From contig NZ_RHNX01000012.1 in NCBI RefSeq assembly GCF_003946335.1, forward strand, positions 1 to 64,000: 64,000 bases of DNA. Reading direction: 5' to 3'. Position 1 is the first letter of the stretch; every line of letters begins with the position of its first letter. This DNA is from Levilactobacillus fujinensis. GTDB lineage: Bacteria > Bacillota > Bacilli > Lactobacillales > Lactobacillaceae. Under the pieces are notes generated by a model. That model ran no database searches, was not told where the DNA came from, and saw only the letters and a program-made list of their open reading frames with translations. Of this stretch, positions 4,301 to 61,593 are shown in pieces. A program made the translations under genes and the position numbers.

Positions 4301-4315
4301 ACTAGAATCTAAAGG

Positions 4316-4795
4316 CTGAAAGCTTTAAAGCACCACTTATGACTACTGTCACAACGATACTGAGATTAAAATTGGGCAACTTAGGCCAGGCATCGCCTTA
4401 CCAGCCGGCAGATAGGGACTGGAACGGAGCGAACGTAACTTGAAGCCTCGAAAATGCCAAATCTCCAAGCTTGGTTTTCTACTAAGTCAGTGGGAAATCA
4501 CCTACCGACTTAGTAGAACGACGCGCCTGAGCCCATATCTGTGGACCTCTCGGCTTAGAAGTTGATCTAAGGCAACATGGAACATGCCGCTAGAAACGCT
4601 GTTGGGTTATGTTTAGACCTTAGCAGCCACTTGGGATTCGGTGATTGAAACTGGCGTGCACAGTCAGAGCCGGAAGCGGCCAGGGATGCAGCTAGCCGAG
4701 CCGAAAGTCCGTCCCTTGGTTGAAGGCGTCTCCCACAGCAAGCGGAATTCCTGGTTGCACGTTCGCAAGAGTAACGTGAACATTTTAACTTTCAG
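4316..4795 (-). repeat. Composite intergenic repeat, copy I (near full length)
   Basis: A 480-base copy in reverse orientation. It begins CTGAAAG and ends CTTTCAG; with flanking bases the terminal inverted repeat reads AAAGGCTGAAAG against AAAGTCTGAAAG (11 of 12). The hairpin core lies at 4391-4557. The opposite arm holds the block CCCACAGCAAGCGGAATTCC shared with other copies. It ends 8 bases from the stop codon of the TauE/SafE gene, filling the gap between two convergent genes. No target duplication was recognised. Confidence 0.8.
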
Positions 4796-4802
4796 ACTTT
4801 TT

Positions 4803-13309: not shown

Positions 13310-13585
13310 CTGAAGGTTGAAAGCCAAAATGTTTGCGTTACGCTTGCAGGCGTGAGAATTGGCATTACGGAATGGGTTGAACCGGGCACACTCCGGCTGC
13401 CAGGATTTCGCTTGTTGGAGGGGAACGTCGCCAATTAAAGAGCGGGTTTCCGGCTCACCTGGAAGCCGTCAAGTTCAGGCGTCACCCGGGTCGTCCTACG
13501 ATATAAATTGGAAAAGAACCCCGTCTAAAATTGGCGACGCGGCTAGCTACATCCCTGACCGGTTCCGGCTCTGATTGCACAGTGC
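13310..13585 (+). repeat. Partial composite repeat (left arm) between the two dehydrogenase genes
   Basis: It begins CTGAAGGTTGAAAGCC and includes ATGTTTGCGTTACGCTTGC, CACTCCGGCTGCCAGGATT and a later CGTCCTACGAT block, matching the left arm of the full copies. The hairpin core is absent. It separates the tandem dehydrogenase genes. Confidence 0.75.
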
Positions 13586-13682
13586 AGCTGCCCTATTTAC
13601 GATTCTAGATTTCGTTTTCGTGTTAGTTGTTGCCTGTTAGGGCCTGCGGTAGGCTAAAGGTAACAATAATGGAGGCGGTTAC

Positions 13683-17175: not shown

Positions 17176-17221
17176 CTAAGCGGTAGTGATATTACGACGT
17201 GGGACTAGATGATAGAGAATT

Positions 17222-17314
17222 TCTGGCAATTGGAGTGCGACCATTTCAACTAGTTTAGCGGTGACGGTTCTTACTGTCGCAAAGTAACACGAGTAGTTTA
17301 ACTTTCAACCTCAG
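17222..17314 (-). repeat. Partial composite repeat (left end only)
   Basis: Reverse-orientation left end: GGAGTGCGACCATTTCAACT, AGTTTAGCGGTGA, TACTGTCGCAAAGTAACACG and the terminal ACTTTCAACCTCAG. It sits 8 bases from a copy of the 95-base repeat. The gap 17176-17693 holds these two repeats and a terminator and no gene. Confidence 0.65.
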
Positions 17315-17478: not shown

Positions 17479-17693
17479 GGATTCTAAAACTGGGCAGTAT
17501 CAACTTGCCTTGGTATGGTAACGTTTAATGGCTGAAACTAGAAATTTAAAAGCTATATCCACAGGTGCTTGCGTCAATGAAAAGATCACAGCCAAACTAG
17601 TGGTAATAATCACCAGCCAGCTACCAGCGATTCGACTTGCCATGGAGGAATACCGCCAACCGAGCTATACGAAAAGGAAATATCTGCCGCGGA

Positions 17694-25985: not shown

Positions 25986-26015
25986 TGACGCGTTTTTAAA
26001 TTGAAAATTAAAAAT

Positions 26016-26275
26016 TAAACGTTCGAAAATACCTATTATGACTGTCGGAACAGCAGTACGGCGACTAAAATTATAGTCAGCGCTTTACCGGTGGGCAGAT
26101 ATGAGCCAACCTGGGGAACGCGTAGTCTAAGCGAGTCGAAAGACCGTTCTTTGACTGGAGATGTTTCCATAGCGAGCAGAATCCCTGGCAGCCGGCGAGC
26201 AACCATACCACCAAACTAACGGTAACAATCTTCACTGTCGCAAGTGTCACGTGAATAAGTTGGGTTTGAACCTTT
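26016..26275 (-). repeat. Partial composite repeat with internal deletions
   Basis: Reverse orientation. Both ends are recognisable (CCTATTATGACTGTCGGAAC at the right end, TTCACTGTCGCAAGTGTCAC and GTTTGAACCTTTG at the left end), plus half of the outer core stem (GGGCAGATATGAGCC) and the AGAATCCCTGGCAGCCGG block. The core hairpins are mostly deleted. It ends three bases from the stop codon of the reductase gene. Confidence 0.7.
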
Positions 26276-30510: not shown

Positions 30511-30705
30511 CTGAAACGTGAAGACTTTTACGCTTGCGACCGTAGGAGGTGTCACCGCTAAATTAGGGGTAATGGCCGGGCACCGACTGTTAAGGATAGG
30601 GGACGTCTTCAGGCTAAGAACGGGCTGCCGGCTCGCCTGAAAGCCGCCAAGCTCAGGCATTTCCCAGGTCAGCCCACCATGTAAGCCGGAAAGAACGTCG
30701 ATCCA
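30511..30705 (+). repeat. Partial composite repeat (left arm)
   Basis: Starts CTGAAACGTGAAGACTTTTA and holds CCGCTAAATTAGGGG, GGCTCGCCTGAAAGCCGCCA and CCCAGGTCAGCCCACCATGT. No core hairpin. It fills the gap between the GntR gene and the YqkB-like gene. Confidence 0.7.
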
Positions 30706-30809
30706 CACCAATATAACTATCGTTTAGTAAGCAATATAGTTTACTTTGCCTGATAATTGCGGTATAAATGATTGTGTACAATTGGTTAGTAGGAAAGAGG
30801 GAAATTTTG

Positions 30810-34916: not shown

Positions 34917-34974
34917 CTTTAGACCACCTACGAATTTTCAGGCGCCACACTGTGGGGGAACTGCCAGAGCCTGA

Positions 34975-35113
34975 GAAGCGGTCTCTGGCTGGAAGCGTTC
35001 CCCACAGCAAGCGGAATCCCTGGCATCCGGAGTGCGGCCGTTTTCACTAATTTAGCCGTGATAATTCCTACTGTCGCAAGCGTAACGCAAACATTTTGGC
35101 TTTCAACCTTTAG
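34975..35113 (-). repeat. Partial composite repeat (left arm)
   Basis: Reverse orientation. Shares an almost identical run with 1-88 and ends with the canonical left terminus CTTTCAACCTTTAG. It lies between the ATPase and multicopper oxidase genes. No gene in 34917-35267. Confidence 0.8.
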
Positions 35114-43012: not shown

Positions 43013-43579
43013 TTAAAGGTTGAACGTTAAAAAGGTCGCACGCTGGTTGTCAGGGAGTCTGCTGGCTGTGGGGAACGCCTGCAGCCAGCGGACGGGCTTC
43101 CGGCTCGCCTGAAAGCCGACAAGTTCAGGCGTCTTTCAGGTCGTCCCACGATGTAAGCTGGAAAATCCCGCCTAGCATCGTCGGCACGGCTAGTTACATC
43201 CCTGGCCGCACTTCGGCTCAGATTGTGTCCGTCAATTTCGAACGTTAAATGCCAACCGAGTGCTGCATTTAGTGTAAATCAATAACGTTTCTATAAGGCA
43301 TAATCCGTGTTATCTTAGAATGACTATGTAAGCCGAGAGGTCGGCAGGTATGGGTTCAGGTGCGTCGTTCTACTTAGTTAGTGGGTGGTTTCCCCACTGG
43401 CTTAGTAGAAAACCAAGCTTGGAGACTCGGTATTTTCGAGGCTTCAAGTTGTGTTCGCACCGATCCAGCCCATATCTGCCGGCCGGTAAGGCGATGATTG
43501 GTCAATGTTGCCAAGTGTTGGCCGCAATATTGCTGTTACAACAGTCATACTAGGTGCTTTAGAACTTTCAATTTTTTGG
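43013..43579 (+). repeat. Composite intergenic repeat, copy II (full)
   Basis: About 567 bases, plus orientation. The left arm starts TTAAAGGTTGAACG and has GGCTCGCCTGAAAGCCG and TTTCAGGTCGTCCCACGATG. The linker AACCGAGTGCTGCATTTAG is shared with copy III. The hairpin core is 43329-43496. The right end reads CTAGGTGCTTTAGAACTTTC. It lies upstream of the AraC gene and may carry part of its leader. Confidence 0.85.
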
Positions 43580-47830: not shown

Positions 47831-47943
47831 GGATGAGACCTCCTTGATTATATGGTATGGGATCACTTAATTAATGGGGCTTAAAGATATTATCTTTGGC
47901 ACGGTTAAGCTGATAATTCTATCATAACATGATGTTATCTAGA

Positions 47944-48086
47944 GGCCGAAAGCTAAGATGCTTATGTTTGCGTCAATAAGGGTGATCACGCTAAATTAAT
48001 GGAAATGGTCGTACGCTGGCTGGTTCGTGGTAAAGTCCGGGCTTTTGACTCGCTTGAATGCCGCGAAGATCGTGCGTCCCTCAGGG
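47944..48086 (+). repeat. Partial composite repeat, diverged
   Basis: Left-arm blocks GGCCGAAAGCTAAGATG, ATGTTTGCGTCA, GATCACGCTAAATTAATGG and CGCTTGAATGCCGCGAAGAT, more diverged than neighbouring copies. A 95-base repeat copy and another left arm follow directly. Confidence 0.6.
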
Positions 48087-48192: not shown

Positions 48193-48384
48193 CTAAAGGT
48201 TGAAAGCCGAAATGTTTGCGTTACTCTTGCGACAACAAGAATTATCACGCCTAAATTAGTGAAAACAGCCGCACTCCGGCCGTCAGGGATTCCGCTTGCT
48301 GTGGGGAACGCTTCCAGCCAAAGGACGGGCTTCCAGCTCGCCTGAAAGCCGCCAAGATCAGGCGTCTCCCAGGTCGTCCCACGC
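48193..48384 (+). repeat. Partial composite repeat (left arm), well conserved
   Basis: Begins with the canonical CTAAAGGTTGAAAGCC-type end and keeps GCGTTACTCTTGCGACAAC, TCCGCTTGCTGTGGGGAACG and CTCGCCTGAAAGCCGCCAAG. It ends at the stop codon of the nucleoside hydrolase gene with no intervening bases. Confidence 0.8.
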
Positions 48385-49323
48385 TCAGTCAGCTAAGATA
48401 GCGAGTTCGTCGATGCGTTTGAAAAAGGCGTCGTGGTCGACCGTGGTGACCAGTGTCACGGGACGACCGTCCGGAATCTCAAAGGTGCGGCCACGACCGG
48501 GACCAGTAGTTAAGACGTCGCTGGTGACTTCCTTGGTAGTGACCACGGCCGGCGATTCGCTAGCAACCGTTGCCAGTACGTCCCACAGGAAGTAGGTCGA
48601 GTTGGTTTCAAAATGTTGTAATGCAGGGACCAACGCATACCCTTGACCGATGAAGTCGATAGCAGGATGTTGGCGTTGCAGGGCCCAATGTTGACGAATG
48701 GCAGGCGTTAAGGGCACTTGACGGGTACTTTCCAGACCGACCATTTGAATGGCGATGGCGCTGTCCCAGACCGTTTTAACGGCTTGCGGGTCCCAGAAGG
48801 CGTTCCACTCAGTCGTGCCATCCTGTTCGGGTTCGGCAACGTTGCCACGGCCGTCGAAAGTGCCGCCCATCCAGTAGAGCTTGTCAATTTTAGCCGTGAT
48901 GGTCGGATCGACTGTCAATGCTCGGGCTAAGTCCGTTAGGGGCCCCGTCATGACCAGCGTGGTCTTGCCCTCGGTTTCTTGAAGCTTGTCGATCAAGTCG
49001 AGGTGGGCGGGTTTGGAAGCGATTGGTGTGTTAATAGTGCCAGCTTCATTTAAAATGGGAAGAGCATCGAGACTAAAGGCGTCTAACCGCCATTCTTTAG
49101 GGAACGGATGCACACCGCGTGAGTTGGAAGCCGCAACGTTCAGTTGAACGCCATGACCGAACCGATCGATGATTTTCCGGCTAGCAGCCAGTGCCGGTTC
49201 TAAGTAGGAATCAGCACCGACTACGCCGACCCCAGTTAGGGTGACATCTGGCATTTGTAGTAATAACAGTAAAGAAACTAAATCGTCGACGCTGCCGTCG
49301 TGGTTAAAATAGACATTTCGCAT
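48385..49323 (-). CDS. Nucleoside hydrolase (IUNH family)
   Basis: About 313 residues. It hydrolyses the N-glycosidic bond of a nucleoside. The metal motif near the N-terminus is NHDGSVDD in place of the usual DTDPGxDD, keeping three Asp residues. Later blocks LVMTGPLTDLARAL and the WNAFWDPQAVK region are family features. The frame extends to 49410, but AGAGGAGAG is placed for the ATG at 49323. The start of the catalytic motif at residue 5 agrees with this. Substrate preference is not known. Confidence 0.85.
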   Translation of the reverse strand: MRNVYFNHDGSVDDLVSLLLLLQMPDVTLTGVGVVGADSYLEPALAASRKIIDRFGHGVQLNVAASNSRGVHPFPKEWRLDAFSLDALPILNEAGTINTPIASKPAHLDLIDKLQETEGKTTLVMTGPLTDLARALTVDPTITAKIDKLYWMGGTFDGRGNVAEPEQDGTTEWNAFWDPQAVKTVWDSAIAIQMVGLESTRQVPLTPAIRQHWALQRQHPAIDFIGQGYALVPALQHFETNSTYFLWDVLATVASESPAVVTTKEVTSDVLTTGPGRGRTFEIPDGRPVTLVTTVDHDAFFKRIDELAILAD

Positions 49324-51804: not shown

Positions 51805-52012
51805 AACGCATAAAAATAGTCGTGTTCCAGCGGTCAGGGGGAACACCGCCAACTCCGAGCAAGAAACGGGCTGCCGACTCGCCAGAAAGCCGCAAAAATC
51901 ATGTATTTCTCAGATCGGCGAACGATGTAAGCCGAGAGGTCGCCAGATAGGAGCTCAGGGGTGTTTGGACGGTTCCGGACCTTTATCTGCCGGCCGGTAA
52001 GGCGATGACTGG
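51805..52012 (+). repeat. Deletion derivative of the composite repeat
   Basis: Contains part of the left arm (GGGCTGCCGACTCGCCAGAA, AACGATGTAAGCCGAGAGGT) joined to the outer core stem (GTCGCCAGATAGGAGCTCAG with TTTATCTGCCGGCCGGTAAG), with the inner hairpins replaced by about 20 bases. It lies between citI and the A/T-rich control region of citM. Confidence 0.75.
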
Positions 52013-52254
52013 ACAACACTGCTAATCTGAAATTAAGTATACCATTTTAGCAATTAACCTGGCGTGTGTGTTCTATGTGGGCCTTGTGATCCATCATCCG
52101 GTTCGGGAGGTAAAGGAACTAAGGCGAGTGTTTCGGGTGCCGTGACGCAAGCGAACAAGCATAATTTAGCTGGACAGCCTGGGCGCTGGCCGGCTGATTG
52201 ACGTCAAAACCGGTGAAAAGGTGGCTAAATGATAGAAATAAGTGGTAAATAGTT

Positions 52255-56220: not shown

Positions 56221-57134
56221 TGGCTGAGAATGAAGAACGTTTACGCCGGACAATGATGTTCGTTCCTGGGAACAACCCGGCAATGGTCAAAGACGCCGGC
56301 ATTTATGGCGCCGACTCCATCATGTTTGACTTGGAAGATTCAGTTTCCTTACCCGAAAAGGACGCCGCACGTTTATTGGTCTATGAAGCCTTACAGACGC
56401 AAGACTACGGCACCGCTGAAATGGTCGTGCGGGTCAACGGTCAGGACACGCCATTTTACGATAATGACGTGAAGGCCATGGTTAAGGCTGGTATCGATGT
56501 TATTCGTTTGCCTAAGGCAGAATCACCAGAAATGGTTCAAAAACTGGATGCCGACATTGCCGCCGCTGAAAAAGAGTTTGGCCGTGAAGCCGGTTCAACC
56601 CACCTGATGGCCGCCATCGAAAGCGCTAAGGGTGTCTTACGAGCCGCCGACATTGCCGCTGCTTCCGACCGGATGATTGGGATCGCCTTATCCGCTGAAG
56701 ACTACACGACGGACATGAAGACCCACCGTTACCCAGATGGCCGCGAACTTGAATTTGCTCGGAACATGGTGCTCCACGCCGCCCGGGCCGCTGGTGTGGC
56801 CGCTTTTGACACGGTCTTCACCAACATGGATGACACGGAAGGCTTCTACCGCGAAACGGAATACATTCACCAACTTGGTTTCGATGGCAAGTCCTTAGTC
56901 AATCCACGGCAGATCCCAATGGTCAACAAGGTCTACGAACCAACAGAGGCTGAAATCAAGAACGCACGAAACGTGATCAACGCCATTCAGGAAGCTAAGT
57001 TAAAGGGTTCCGGTGTGATCTCCATGAACGGCCAAATGGTCGACCGACCAGTCGTACTCCGCGCACAACGGGTCATGAAGTTAGCTAAAGCGTCCAACTT
57101 AGTTGATGAGGAGGGTAATTATCTTGAAAAGTAA
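56220..57134 (+). CDS. citE: Citrate lyase beta subunit CitE (citryl-CoA lyase)
   Basis: About 304 residues, HpcH/HpaI-type TIM barrel. It cleaves citryl-ACP to acetyl-ACP and oxaloacetate. [14 protein letters not shown] at the N-terminus, [11 protein letters not shown] and [11 protein letters not shown] with metal-binding Glu/Asp are clear. The ATG at 56220 shares one base with the citD stop codon (TAATG) and GGGAGG precedes it, so this start is preferred to 56205. Confidence 0.95.
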
Positions 57135-58662
57135 AGTAAATCGCGAATTACCAGATGATTTAATGCAAAAGCTTGATTACAAGCCATTTGAAACGACCGA
57201 AATTGGTCATCCTGAAATCCAACGGGTAGCACCTAAGGTTCACGTTTCGACCGGAGATGATAAGATTGTCGACTCCATCAAGCAAGTCGTTGCTGACACC
57301 GTTAAAGACGGTATGACTATTTCCTTTCACCATCACTTCCGGAACGGGGACTTCGTCTTCAATCAAGTGATGCGGGTCATCATCGATGCTGGCATCAAGA
57401 ACTTAACGTTAGCCCCATCTTCATTGACCGGTGTGATGAACGATATGGTCATCGAAGCTATCAAGGCCGGGACCATTACCAACATTACCAGTTCTGGGAT
57501 GCGGGGTTCCCTCGGGGACTTTGTTTCTCACGGTGGCTTAAAGAATCCGGTTATCTTCCGTTCACACGGAAACCGGGCACGGGCCATCGAACACGGTGAC
57601 ATTAAGATCGACGTGGCCTTCTTAGGGGTACCAAGTGCTGATCGGTTAGGGAACGCCAACGGGATGGAAGGTAACGCAGTCTTCGGTTCGCTGGGGTACG
57701 CGTTGATGGACGCCCAATACGCTGATCAAGTTGTCTTACTGACCGACAACATCGTCGATTACCCGAATACGCCAGCTTCCATTAAGCAAACGCAAGTGGA
57801 CTATGTGGTCAAGGTCGACAAGGTTGGGGACCCCGACAAGATTGGTTCCGGCGCGACGCGTTTCACCAAGGACCCGAAGGAATTGAAGATCGCCTCCATG
57901 GTGAACGATGTCATCACCCACTCCCCGTACTTCAAGGATGGCTTCTCATTCCAAACGGGTTCCGGTGGTGCTGCATTGGCCGTTACCCGTTACCTGCGTC
58001 AATCCATGATCGACAATCAGATCACCGCGTCGTTTGCCTTAGGTGGCATCACAAAGCCAACGACCGACCTGCTAAATGAAGGGCTGGTCAAAAAGGTGAT
58101 GGACGTTCAAGACTTCGACAAGGGTGCCGCAGATTCTATGCACACTAATGGTAACCAACAAGAGATCGATGCGTCTTGGTACGCCGATCCCGACAACAAG
58201 GGGGCCATGGTCGACCAGTTGGACGTCGTTATTCTGAGTGCCCTAGAAATCGACACCAAGTTTAATGTCAACGTCATGACGGGTTCTGATGGCGTCATTC
58301 GGGGGGCCATTGGAGGTCACCAGGATGCTGCTACTGGGAAATTAACCATCATTTCCGCACCGTTAGTTCGGGGCCGGATCGCCACCGTTGTGCCAGATGT
58401 GACGACCGTTGTCACCCCTGGGGATTCCGTCGATGTGTTGGTTACTGAATTTGGGATTGCAATCAACCCGAAGCGGACCGACTTGATCGCCGTCTTGAGT
58501 AACATTCCTGGTCTGCCAGTCTACAAGATCGAAGACCTCCAGAAGATGGCCGAAAAGCGTGTTGGTACGCCAAAGCCATTGGAATTCACTGACCGCACCG
58601 TTGCCTTGATCGAATACCGCGATGGCACTGTGATCGACACAGTTAAGGAAGTTAAGGACTAA
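57124..58662 (+). CDS. citF: Citrate lyase alpha subunit CitF (citrate:acetyl-ACP transferase)
   Basis: About 512 residues. It exchanges acetyl for citryl on the CitD thioester. Features are [50 protein letters not shown] and [10 protein letters not shown]. The frame opens at 57103, but GAGGAGGG lies at 57107-57114 and suits the TTG at 57124 (LKSKVNREL). It overlaps citE by 11 bases, so citCDEF are coupled. A repeat copy interrupts the operon after it. Confidence 0.95.
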
Positions 58663-58757
58663 GATCAGTTTTGAATGGTCGCACCGCTCCAGCCTATATC
58701 TACCGGCTGGTAAGGTGAAAAGAGCCATACTATAACTGTGTATCGTAAATAAATGAG

Positions 58758-58801
58758 AATAGCCATTGCGGCTGGCGACTTGGCTAGCTACAATGGCTAT
58801 T
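58758..58801 (+). terminator. Hairpin after citF
   Basis: AATAGCCATTG and CAATGGCTATT pair around a GC-rich loop; only a weak T tract follows. It may partly end the transcript or stabilise the citF 3' end before citX. Confidence 0.55.
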
Positions 58802-58809
58802 GTTATTAA

Positions 58810-59407
58810 CTGAAGGTTGAACGTTAAAATGTTCGTGTTACTCTCGTGACAGTAAGCATTATCACCGTTAAACTAGTTGAAATGGTCGCACTCCGGCTGT
58901 GGGGAACGCCTCCAGCCAAAGGACGGGCTTCTGGCTCGCCTGAAAGCCGCCAAGTTCGGCTGTTTTTCAGGGCATCCCACGATGTAAGTCGGGAACCCCG
59001 CCTAACATCGTCGACACGGCTAGCTGCATCCCTGGCCGCCTCCAGCTCAGATTGCACCCGTCAATTTCGAACGTTAAGTGCCAACCGAGTGCTGCATTTA
59101 GCGTGAATCAATAACGTTTCTATAAGACATGATCGATGTTGCCTTAGACCGCCTACGTAAGCCGAGAGGTCGGCAGATATGGGCTCAGGCGCGTCGTTCT
59201 ACTTAGTCAGGGGGTGGTTTTCCCGCTGGCTTAGTAGAAAACCAAGCTTGGAGACTCGGCATTTTCGAGGCTTCAAGTTGTGTTCGCACCGATCCAGCCC
59301 ATATCTGCCGGCCGGTAAGGCGATGGTTTGACAACGTTGCCCAATTTTAGCCGCAGTATTGCGGTTACAGTGGTCACACTAGGTGTTTTAGAGCTTTTAA
59401 CCTTTAG
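58810..59407 (+). repeat. Composite intergenic repeat, copy III, inside the cit operon
   Basis: About 598 bases, the longest copy. Ends are CTGAAGGTTGAACG and CTTTTAACCTTTAG, giving an imperfect terminal inverted repeat of about 45 bases. The left arm holds GGACGGGCTTCTGGCTCGCC and the core is 59158-59326 with all hairpins. It lies between citF and citX, ending 15 bases before the citX ribosome binding site. Confidence 0.88.
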
Positions 59408-59436
59408 TTGCTAAGAATAACGAGGAGGAATTTGTG

Positions 59437-60006
59437 ATGACGACATCTATTTTTGAAACGGGAATGCCAATAGATATTGCGGGGGTACTGGCAAACAAGG
59501 ATCGGCGGGTGGCCTTTCAGCGAGAAGCACTGCGGTCCGACCCTAACCAGACACTACTAGCAATCAAGCTAAATATTCCTGGACCAATTAAAAATAATGC
59601 GGCCATCACACAGCTCTTCAATCGCGGCGTACAGGAGTTTCAGGCAGCTTTAACGGCTAACGGAATTGTCGTGGAACAGCTAGCTGGTTGGGGAACCGTT
59701 GCCGGTAACGAATTGTTCTTACGGACGATCACGGCTGCAGCGGTGGTAAAAAAGGTAGCGGCAACGTTCGAGGATACGACAGAACTGGGCCGAATCTTTG
59801 ATGTTGATGTGTTGGACGGCACCGGCCACTCTTGGTCACGGACTGAACTGGGTGCGGAAGCGCGCCGATGCTTCATTTGCAATCGGCCGGCTAAGGAATG
59901 TGCGCGGTCTCGCCGCCACAGTGTTGCCGACCTGCAAGCCTATATTGATGATATGTATCATAAGACGTTTGACCCAGAGGAGGGCATGACTCGTGACGAC
60001 CACTAA
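59437..60006 (+). CDS. citX: Apo-citrate lyase phosphoribosyl-dephospho-CoA transferase CitX
   Basis: About 189 residues. It attaches the prosthetic group to apo-CitD. The family motif GRIFDVDVLD and the Cys/Arg-rich block RRCFICNRPAKECARSRRHS are present. GAGGAGG precedes GTG-ATG; the ATG at 59437 is preferred. It is separated from citF by 774 bases of repeat but is followed directly by citG with a 14-base overlap. Confidence 0.93.
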   Translation: MTTSIFETGMPIDIAGVLANKDRRVAFQREALRSDPNQTLLAIKLNIPGPIKNNAAITQLFNRGVQEFQAALTANGIVVEQLAGWGTVAGNELFLRTITAAAVVKKVAATFEDTTELGRIFDVDVLDGTGHSWSRTELGAEARRCFICNRPAKECARSRRHSVADLQAYIDDMYHKTFDPEEGMTRDDH

Positions 60007-60862
60007 ACCAACTGAAACGTTAGCGACAGATGCGTTGCGGGCACTGCTCTATGAGGTGTCGGTCACGCCTAAACCAGGCCTAGTGGATCCCGCGTCTCAG
60101 GGTCCGCACCCGGATATGACGGTGTTTACCTTCATCGACAGCGCGTTGAGCCTCCAACCGTACTTCATGCAGTGTGTTGCGGCGGGAACGGCGTTTGCTG
60201 GTAGCGACCTGACCGACTTATTTAGTCAGATTCGGCCCCTCGGGGTAGATGCTGAACGTGCGATGCGCACGGCAACGAATACAGTGAACACGCATAAGGG
60301 CGCCATTTTCTCGCTAGGTATTCTAGTTACGGCCAGCGCGTACGCGGCGCAGGCAGATTTGGAACTGCGGGCAACGGTCAAGGCGATGCTGTATGGACTG
60401 ACTGCGCACGACTTTGATGGGCTTACCGATAAGTCTGCCGACCAACTGACTGCTGGAGAAAAACTGTACTTGCGTGATGGCATTACCGGCATTCGCGGGG
60501 AGGCTGAGGCCGGGTACCCCACCGTCTTCGACATGGCGCTACCGGCGTTACGTCGGAGCACGGGAACGCTCAATCAACGGCTGTTAGACACACTACTGAC
60601 CATTGTAGCTAACTCAACGGACACTAACCTGGTTAAACGGGCTGGTAGTGCGGACATCGTGCCATGGGCTCACCAGCAGGCACAAGATTACCTTGCGCTT
60701 GGCGGGAGTAAGACCACGGCTGGCTGGGCAAAATTGGTGGCGCTGAACCAGGTGTTCGAGCGCGACAATTTGAGCCTCGGCGGGTCCGCTGATTTGCTGA
60801 TTCTAACTGTTTTTCTAGGCCTCCGTGAAGGCATCATCGACAACGACAGTTTTAGCCTGTAG
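59993..60862 (+). CDS. citG: Triphosphoribosyl-dephospho-CoA synthase CitG
   Basis: A 289-residue enzyme that makes the prosthetic-group precursor from ATP and dephospho-CoA. TPKPGLVDPASQGPHPDM, GAIFSLGIL, DGITGIRGEAEAGYP and NLSLGGSADLL are family blocks. The start is GTG with GAGGAGGG upstream and lies within citX. It ends the operon; a terminator follows about 85 bases later. Confidence 0.93.
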   Translation: MTTTKPTETLATDALRALLYEVSVTPKPGLVDPASQGPHPDMTVFTFIDSALSLQPYFMQCVAAGTAFAGSDLTDLFSQIRPLGVDAERAMRTATNTVNTHKGAIFSLGILVTASAYAAQADLELRATVKAMLYGLTAHDFDGLTDKSADQLTAGEKLYLRDGITGIRGEAEAGYPTVFDMALPALRRSTGTLNQRLLDTLLTIVANSTDTNLVKRAGSADIVPWAHQQAQDYLALGGSKTTAGWAKLVALNQVFERDNLSLGGSADLLILTVFLGLREGIIDNDSFSL

Positions 60863-61054: not shown

Positions 61055-61582
61055 GCTGAAAATTGAACGTTAAAATGTTCATGTTACTCTTGCGACAGTA
61101 AGAATTAGCACGGCTAAATTAGTGAAAACAGCCGCACTCCGGCTGCCAGGAATTCCGCTTGCTGTGGGAAACGTTTCCAGCCAAAGGACGGGCTTCCAGC
61201 TCGCCTGCATCCCTGGCCGCCTCCGGCTCTGATTGTGCACGTCAATTCCAATCACTGAATCTCAAGTGGTTGCTAAAGTTTAAGCATAATTCAATAGCGC
61301 TTCAAACGGCATGATCCATATTGCCTCAGACCAACTACGTCAGCCGAGAGGTCGGCAGATATGGGCTCAGGCGCGTCGTTCTACTTAGTCGGCAGGTGGG
61401 TTCCCTGCTGGCTTAGTAGAAAACCAAGCTTGGAGACTCGGTCCTTTCGAGGCTTCAAGTTGTGTTCGCACCGATCCAGCCCATATCTGCCGGCCGGTAA
61501 GGCGATGGTTGGACAACGTTGCCTAATTTTAGACCCAGTATCGTTGTGACAACAGTCGTAATGTGTGTTTTGGAACTTTCAG
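61055..61582 (+). repeat. Composite intergenic repeat, copy IV
   Basis: About 528 bases. It starts CTGAAAATTGAACG and ends CTTTCAG, 11 bases before the stop codon of the next gene. The left arm has lost about 100 bases relative to copy III (GGCTTCCAGCTCGCC joins GCATCCCTGGCCGCC). The core lies at 61341-61507. It lies between convergent genes. Confidence 0.85.
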
Positions 61583-61593
61583 TCTTTCAACTT

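Follow-up and report, generated by a model that had tools for sequence, protein, structure and literature searches.

BOX repeats of Streptococcus pneumoniae are assembled from the modules boxA, boxB, and boxC, are 67-637 bp long, and are nearly absent from other streptococci save S. mitis, with related elements in S. suis (PMC3049150). BOX, RUP, and SPRITE repeats are proposed to affect co-transcribed genes and are reported in excess between convergent genes (PMC3049150). The repeat examined here resembles BOX in being high-copy, intergenic, modular, and MITE-like, with inverted ends, target duplications, and strong RNA folds; this likeness was judged by the described features and not by boxA/B/C sequence models (PMC3049150). 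The conserved fold expected of a BOX-like repeat would also be present, judging by the predicted fold of the module and its covariation. It differs from BOX in that its module is a three-way junction of ~165 nt, arranged in head-to-head pairs, distributed over at least 14 genera, and found with or without transposon ends.

Bacterial MITEs share with our repeat the inverted ends, a 7-9 bp duplication, a size of ~640 nt, the lack of a transposase gene, dispersed occurrence, and deletion subtypes. Unlike them, the repeat has an interior made of covarying RNA-type structure, which is better conserved than the ends, and no parent insertion sequence was found. The REP/BIME systems with RAYT likewise consist of numerous palindromic units located between genes and frequently arranged as opposed pairs. 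However, REP units are short hairpins, while the units described here are ~165 nt long and branched, and the genome that carries them has no Y1 transposase. Finally, GOLLD and ROOL, large structured RNAs of the Lactobacillales, are structured non-coding RNAs of lactobacilli as well, but our module is a high-copy dispersed repeat without a match in Rfam 15. A survey of the open-licence literature at the level of titles and beginnings of abstracts revealed no description of this repeat.

The window, that is, the whole stretch of DNA analysed, comprises the first 64,000 nucleotides of contig NZ_RHNX01000012.1 of Levilactobacillus fujinensis. The genome of this organism (G000; 3,007,089 bases, 103 contigs) groups with Levilactobacillus, and its CitX shares 91% identity with the CitX proteins of L. 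koreensis and L. andaensis. NCBIfam models confirmed the identity of citC, citD, citE, citF, citX, and citG. The original prediction, that the genes overlap within citCDEF and within citXG and that 774 bases with a full repeat copy split the two groups, was borne out; the distance is 774 bases to the ATG of citX, or 771 nt if the start is GTG, and the repeat copy measures 598 nt from one terminal inverted repeat to the other. The hairpin predicted behind citF is present as well, although the picture had to be refined: the stretch behind citF also holds a 3' remnant of an older repeat copy, most of which is deleted. The ribosome-binding site of citX begins ~15 nt past the right end of the full copy. 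Searching the own genome with the gap sequence (58663-59433) yielded 57 HSPs.

Table 1. Features of the citF-citX region and a second repeat copy (window coordinates). R1 is a covariance model of domain 2 built from 31 units.
Feature	Position	Strand	Evidence or remark
citF, citrate lyase alpha subunit	57103..58662	+	TIGR01584, 806 bits
3' fragment of older, mostly deleted repeat copy	58676..58718	+	nhmmer model 495-537, E 2.9e-7
Conserved citF-citX intercistronic hairpin	58758..58801	+	-28.9 kcal/mol, no T-run behind
Left target-site copy TTATTAA, 7 nt	58803..58809	+	empty-site alignment, L042-L045
Left terminal inverted repeat	58810..58823	+	13/14 to consensus CTGAAGGTTGAAAG
Unit A, structured module	58896..59020	-	R1 17 bits, E 0.0095 (L181:963-1087:-)
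Unit B, intact structured module	59155..59323	+	R1 203.4 bits (unit B is among the 31 sequences from which R1 was built); covariation
Right terminal inverted repeat	59394..59407	-	12/14 to consensus
Right target-site copy TTGCTAA	59408..59414	+	5/7 to left copy
citX, intact	59434..60006	+	TIGR03124, 168 bits
citG, intact	59993..60862	+	TIGR03125, 310 bits
Second near-complete copy, downstream of citG	61057..61586	+	nhmmer 2-152, 237-618; R1 204.5 bits

After excision of the element with one target copy, the window aligns here without gaps to four relatives, L. koreensis, L. andaensis, L. enshiensis, and L. cerevisiae (L042-L045), whose target site reads TTGTAAA or TTGTCAA. We regard it as secure that the stretch 58810-59407 is an insertion of a MITE-like, non-autonomous element with two opposed structured modules: inverted ends, a target duplication, an empty site, and the lack of a transposase gene are all found. 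The target copies agree in 5/7 positions, the right end in 12/14, and unit A is damaged, which indicates that copies are not all kept intact. Namely, a 19-nt deletion removed one arm of the terminal stem of unit A, while unit A of a sister copy (window 43075-43223, minus strand) gave a stronger R1 match of 28 bits. The intercistronic hairpin is near-identical in the four relatives, which are without the window's insertion. The older fragment lies at the position of the copy found right behind citF in L042, L043, and L044, and it probably has the same origin. A strong citF-citX hairpin was also observed in L046, where it is related, and in L189, in unrelated sequence; the recurring hairpin is possibly an intercistronic processing or stability element. 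In L. cerevisiae (L045:4718-4905) and the metagenome-assembled genome UBA5807 (L050:4610-4990), inspection by eye showed another hairpin repeat with the motif GTTTCAGC(A/T)AT in the citF-citX gap, perhaps a second dispersed repeat family.

Alignment of full copies from the own genome gave the inverted ends CTGAAGGTTGAAAG...CTTTCAACCTTCAG. That genome contains 49 exact occurrences of the end 14-mer and none of the reversed control (100 and 1, respectively, with at most one mismatch), which rules out chance. A profile search of the fetched stretches and the window produced 164 HSPs, merged into 118 elements or fragments. Further copies or fragments in the window, mostly incomplete, lie at 1-87, 4310-4799, 13311-13586, 17217-17312, 17569-17659, 26012-26275, 30526-30707, 34967-35112, 43026-43575, 47940-48086, 48194-48414, and 51811-52069. 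From other species (G003, G025, G005, G022, and G028), 20 stretches were picked by their ends; 12 of these are two-ended, with at most two mismatches, and eight of the two-ended stretches measure 638-641 nt, giving ~640 nt for the complete element. Flanks read by eye show exact 7-9 bp duplications in nine of the 12, a 6/7 match in two, and none in one. Among 33 own-genome copies the longest ORF has 90 aa (median 66), seven copies are without an ORF of at least 50 aa, and no transposase gene lies inside. A coding role of the element seems unlikely, since no ORF is common to all 33 copies, though a 62-codon plus-strand ORF stands at one fixed place in nine of them. Internal-deletion subtypes have common breakpoints, e.g. 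at model positions 88/253, where the alignment of copies shows the direct repeat CTCCGGCT on both sides of domain 1. The matches listed in a search of 34 genomes include no pair of exact ends spaced 1-3 kb apart. With no autonomous element with these ends found, Y1 being the sole transposase family searched, mobilization in trans is assumed.

The module of ~165 nt, represented in the window copy by domain 2 (unit B, 59155-59323), is predicted to fold into a three-way junction that is closed by a long terminal stem and bears two long hairpins as arms, with 58 pairs in the consensus. Relative to 20 shuffles, the fold of the window copy has z-scores of -7.9 on the plus and -5.6 on the minus strand; the sister copy reaches -8.3. 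In an alignment of 31 units (A1), 17 of the 58 pairs show changes in both partners, compared with no more than two when the partners are slid, the pair model being derived from A1 itself. A larger alignment (A2) comprises 90 units from seven genera, aligned by R1 at E <= 1e-11 from 69 hand-picked sources; here 56 of 58 pairs have double-sided changes (1211 cells) and 96.8% of cells are paired, as read from an alignment fitted to, and so biased towards, the model. The A2 covariation score is 0.612, against 0.048-0.069 with slid partners and 0.160 after shuffling. Unit B folds at -88.2 versus -61.6 in the comparison of strands. Domain 2 contains 164 G-U against 50 A-C cells, and own-genome copies 200 against 18; this excess indicates the plus strand of domain 2. 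For unit A, no clear strand preference was seen in own-genome copies. The bias towards one strand fits RNA and single-stranded DNA alike. A known RNA family was rejected, as Rfam 15 gave no match at gathering score: there were none in the window and none in L012 and L047 at E <= 1, and a relaxed search of 58500-59600 returned RNAI (E 5) as its sole match. No tRNA is present in the window, so that a link to tRNA was also discarded.

Our preferred reading, which we consider probable, is that of a MITE-like element with two head-to-head RNA-type modules, where the module would act in read-through transcripts and have a modest effect on citXG. The rival to be taken most seriously, which we consider less likely than not, is an ordinary parasitic MITE, with hairpins as by-products that are conserved through descent from a few active masters and with no host or cis function. 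The intergenic location, the unrelated neighbour genes, and the deletion subtypes with common breakpoints would all suit such a parasite, as would the frequent placement of own-genome copies between convergent genes: by raw counts based on plain ORF picks, without a genome-wide background, 101 elements have a neighbour on each side and lie outside ORFs, and of these 45 are in a convergent and 6 in a divergent setting. The same argument has been made for BOX, RUP, and SPRITE (PMC3049150). A general preference for convergent genes was rejected, because 44 loci of other genomes, counted in the same raw manner, do not share it (12 convergent, 22 co-directional, 8 divergent, and 2 that lack a gene on the left).

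Sequence conservation argues against a mere parasite. Among the 33 own-genome copies, domain 2 has a mean pairwise divergence of 6.7% (528 pairs) and domain 1, which is retained by fewer copies, one of 9.2% (133 pairs), but the spacer reaches 22.5% (528 pairs) and the two end regions 18.7% (276 pairs) and 18.0% (528 pairs). Conservation of the modules is thus two to three times that of the end regions, which are required for transposition. Also, three of the compared common insertions, defined as those with both flanks alike between species, have more compensated than broken pairs. These are the citF-citX insertion common to G002 and G013 (5 compensated, 2 one-sided, 0 broken) and another locus common to G008 and G001 (16/3/2 and 12/2/2). 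The opposite-strand citF-citX copies (L187, L188, and L190) have 0-2 compensated and 0-4 broken pairs. Gene conversion among copies could mimic selection on the module.

The third point against a parasite is that the module is found without the ends and across many genera. Matches of R1 were detected in 34 of 35 Levilactobacillus genomes, with 1 to at least 81 per positive genome, and in 103 of 397 Lactobacillaceae genomes from 14 of 40 genera. There were none in the sampled genomes outside this family: the 11 positives among 295 genomes of the order are all Lactobacillaceae, and the single positive among 398 genomes of the class is the own genome. These counts are lower bounds, since stricter filters were used in the larger searches. 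Wider scoring counted 126 matches in G018, 98 in G032, and 12 in G082. A location on chromosomes only was considered and dropped, because a search of 72,556 plasmid records with the G082 unit gave partial matches in nine. Of four plasmid records examined with R1, two were confirmed to carry units, L. brevis p5 and L. plantarum p_no.1, the other two being negative. Two own-genome copies had no plasmid match and one of those no phage match; the G018 unit was without a match in plasmid or phage records, the G107 unit without one on plasmids, and viral contigs contained no exact match of one pattern. On L. brevis p5 (NZ_CP021461.1), an annotated hypothetical protein at L195:659-937 overlaps a minus-strand module match and may be a spurious ORF.

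Chromosomal location was compared in two genomes. From origin to terminus, successive fifths hold 24, 29, 17, 12, and 0 loci in G018 (82 loci, among 107 matches listed of 126), but 19, 28, 8, 5, and 19 in G032. A bias towards the origin, clear in the former, is absent in the latter and is therefore not claimed. Around the expected terminus of G018 (C1, 0.93-1.72 Mb), a stretch of 0.79 Mb is without a module among the matches listed, and G032 differs in this respect. Downstream ORFs at 12 chosen loci, identified by eye, were varied and included ileS (twice), dnaB, polA, truB, and a permease. With the class of downstream gene varying in this way, the module does not behave as a gene-linked cis-regulator of the riboswitch type.

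Domain 1 is matched by R1 on the minus strand, so that each full element contains two modules, head to head. In two genomes, 39 of 42 close neighbours have this arrangement, 3 are in tandem, and none is tail to tail. In G018 it applies to all 25 neighbour pairs with starts <700 nt apart, among 107 matches listed of 126; in G032 (<900 nt, among 97 listed of 98) 14 pairs are head to head, 3 tandem, and none tail to tail. Among other genera, six module copies of G082 are solitary, with sharp edges. In G112 (L141 and L142) the module was seen by eye in tandem arrays, with a period of ~168 nt and adjoining terminator-like hairpins in L141. Scanning from 900 nt before to 400 nt after the unit at 40 loci of other genomes revealed inverted ends on both sides in 4, on one side in 2, and on neither side in 34. 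Module and transposon are thus separable, and the module also moves or persists otherwise; its borders in other genera are approximate.

Going one step beyond our preferred reading, the module may be a functional RNA of Lactobacillaceae under copy-by-copy selection, packaged by a transposon as an outward pair, so that whatever the insertion orientation and the side of transcription each read-through RNA would bear a single sense module. It would occur from dozens to more than a hundred times per chromosome in most Levilactobacillus and would serve as an orientation-independent tag for mRNA ends, intercistronic processing, or stability, or as the binding site of an RNA-binding protein. We offer this only tentatively.

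It is rather unlikely that the module is constrained as single-stranded DNA, e.g. as a fold for a mobilizing enzyme, rather than as RNA. A strand-specific fold would suit either molecule, and the association with a transposon in Levilactobacillus and the varied neighbour genes would agree with DNA. Y1 transposases are the class known for folded ends. Mobilization by a RAYT was rejected, as PF01797 (Y1) had no match in the own genome, while the control matched in 5 of 14 genomes. Moreover, the ends carry ordinary 7-9 bp duplications and the tolerance of G-U pairs is typical of RNA, both of which speak against a DNA fold.

Comparison of relatives bears on a further proposal, namely that the citF-citX gap recruits or retains the module and so tunes the levels of citX versus citF. 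CitX is encoded in 14 of 34 genomes of the genus; citF adjoins it in 10, and in the other four no citF lies within the fetched stretch. The gap ranges from 111 to about 1000 nt among the 10 genomes. A module is present in seven of them, sense to the genes in G000, G013, G002, and G007 and against them in G027, G031, and G032; it is shortened in G007, and G032 has two tandem domain-2 units. The gaps of G006, G025, and G004 are without it. The same content in all relatives, which would have spoken against the original prediction, is thus not observed. By parsimony over the 10 gaps, at least three insertions are required: the old one behind citF, an opposite-strand one, and the window's own. These insertions, the occupancy of 7/10, and the strong hairpin that recurs even with unrelated sequence (L189) would favour a recruiting gap. 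Against it stand both orientations, the shortened copies, the three gaps without a module, and the repeated hits to be expected from the abundance of the module, occupancy having been counted for the citF-citX gap alone. The variable gap content therefore gives no indication that the module has a fixed regulatory role at this site, and we consider recruitment improbable. Internal stops are absent from 13 of 14 citX matches; the remaining one (L186, in G025, with a gap lacking the module) has one TAG.

The original suggestion that the element supplies a promoter for citXG is highly improbable. The layout of modules diverging around an unstructured spacer would suit outward promoters, but promoter-like sites are at chance level: shuffling predicts 1.0 in the gap, where 1 is present, and likewise 1.0 in a sister copy that is better preserved, where there is none. 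In addition, no part evolves faster than the spacer (22.5%), and citXG is kept in relatives without the element. Its other two suggestions, a processing site or lowered expression of citXG, are possible. Terminator-like sites are somewhat in excess, with 3 in 58600-59500 against 0.9 expected (sd 0.8). A single one of the three is on the plus strand, and of the two minus-strand sites one lies in the old hairpin outside the element; the sister copy has 2 against 1.1 expected.

In our preferred reading, the element entered between the conserved hairpin and the ribosome-binding site of citX, duplicating 7 bp, with the older copy right behind citF surviving as a fragment only. The cit operon transcript would thereby gain a folded stretch of ~600 nt just upstream of citX, which may alter the output of citXG modestly via stability, processing, or partial termination. 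By analogy with pneumococcal BOX repeats, this long folded stretch ahead of citXG would be the likely local effect. Within read-through transcripts the module would, we infer, function as RNA or as one particular single strand. Since the modules point away from each other, transcription through a full element from either side would, we hypothesize, yield an RNA with exactly one module in sense.

These results reveal a strongly covarying RNA-type structure without an Rfam family, present in dozens of copies per genome (126 matches in one) of common lactic acid bacteria. Whichever reading holds, the covariance model is a tool for annotation, and the citF-citX gap, which carries the module in some related species and lacks it in others, is a natural test locus. 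If parasitic, the repeat would be a case of a MITE whose internal fold is conserved above its ends. If the module is functional, it would represent a post-transcriptional layer common to many genera of one bacterial family.
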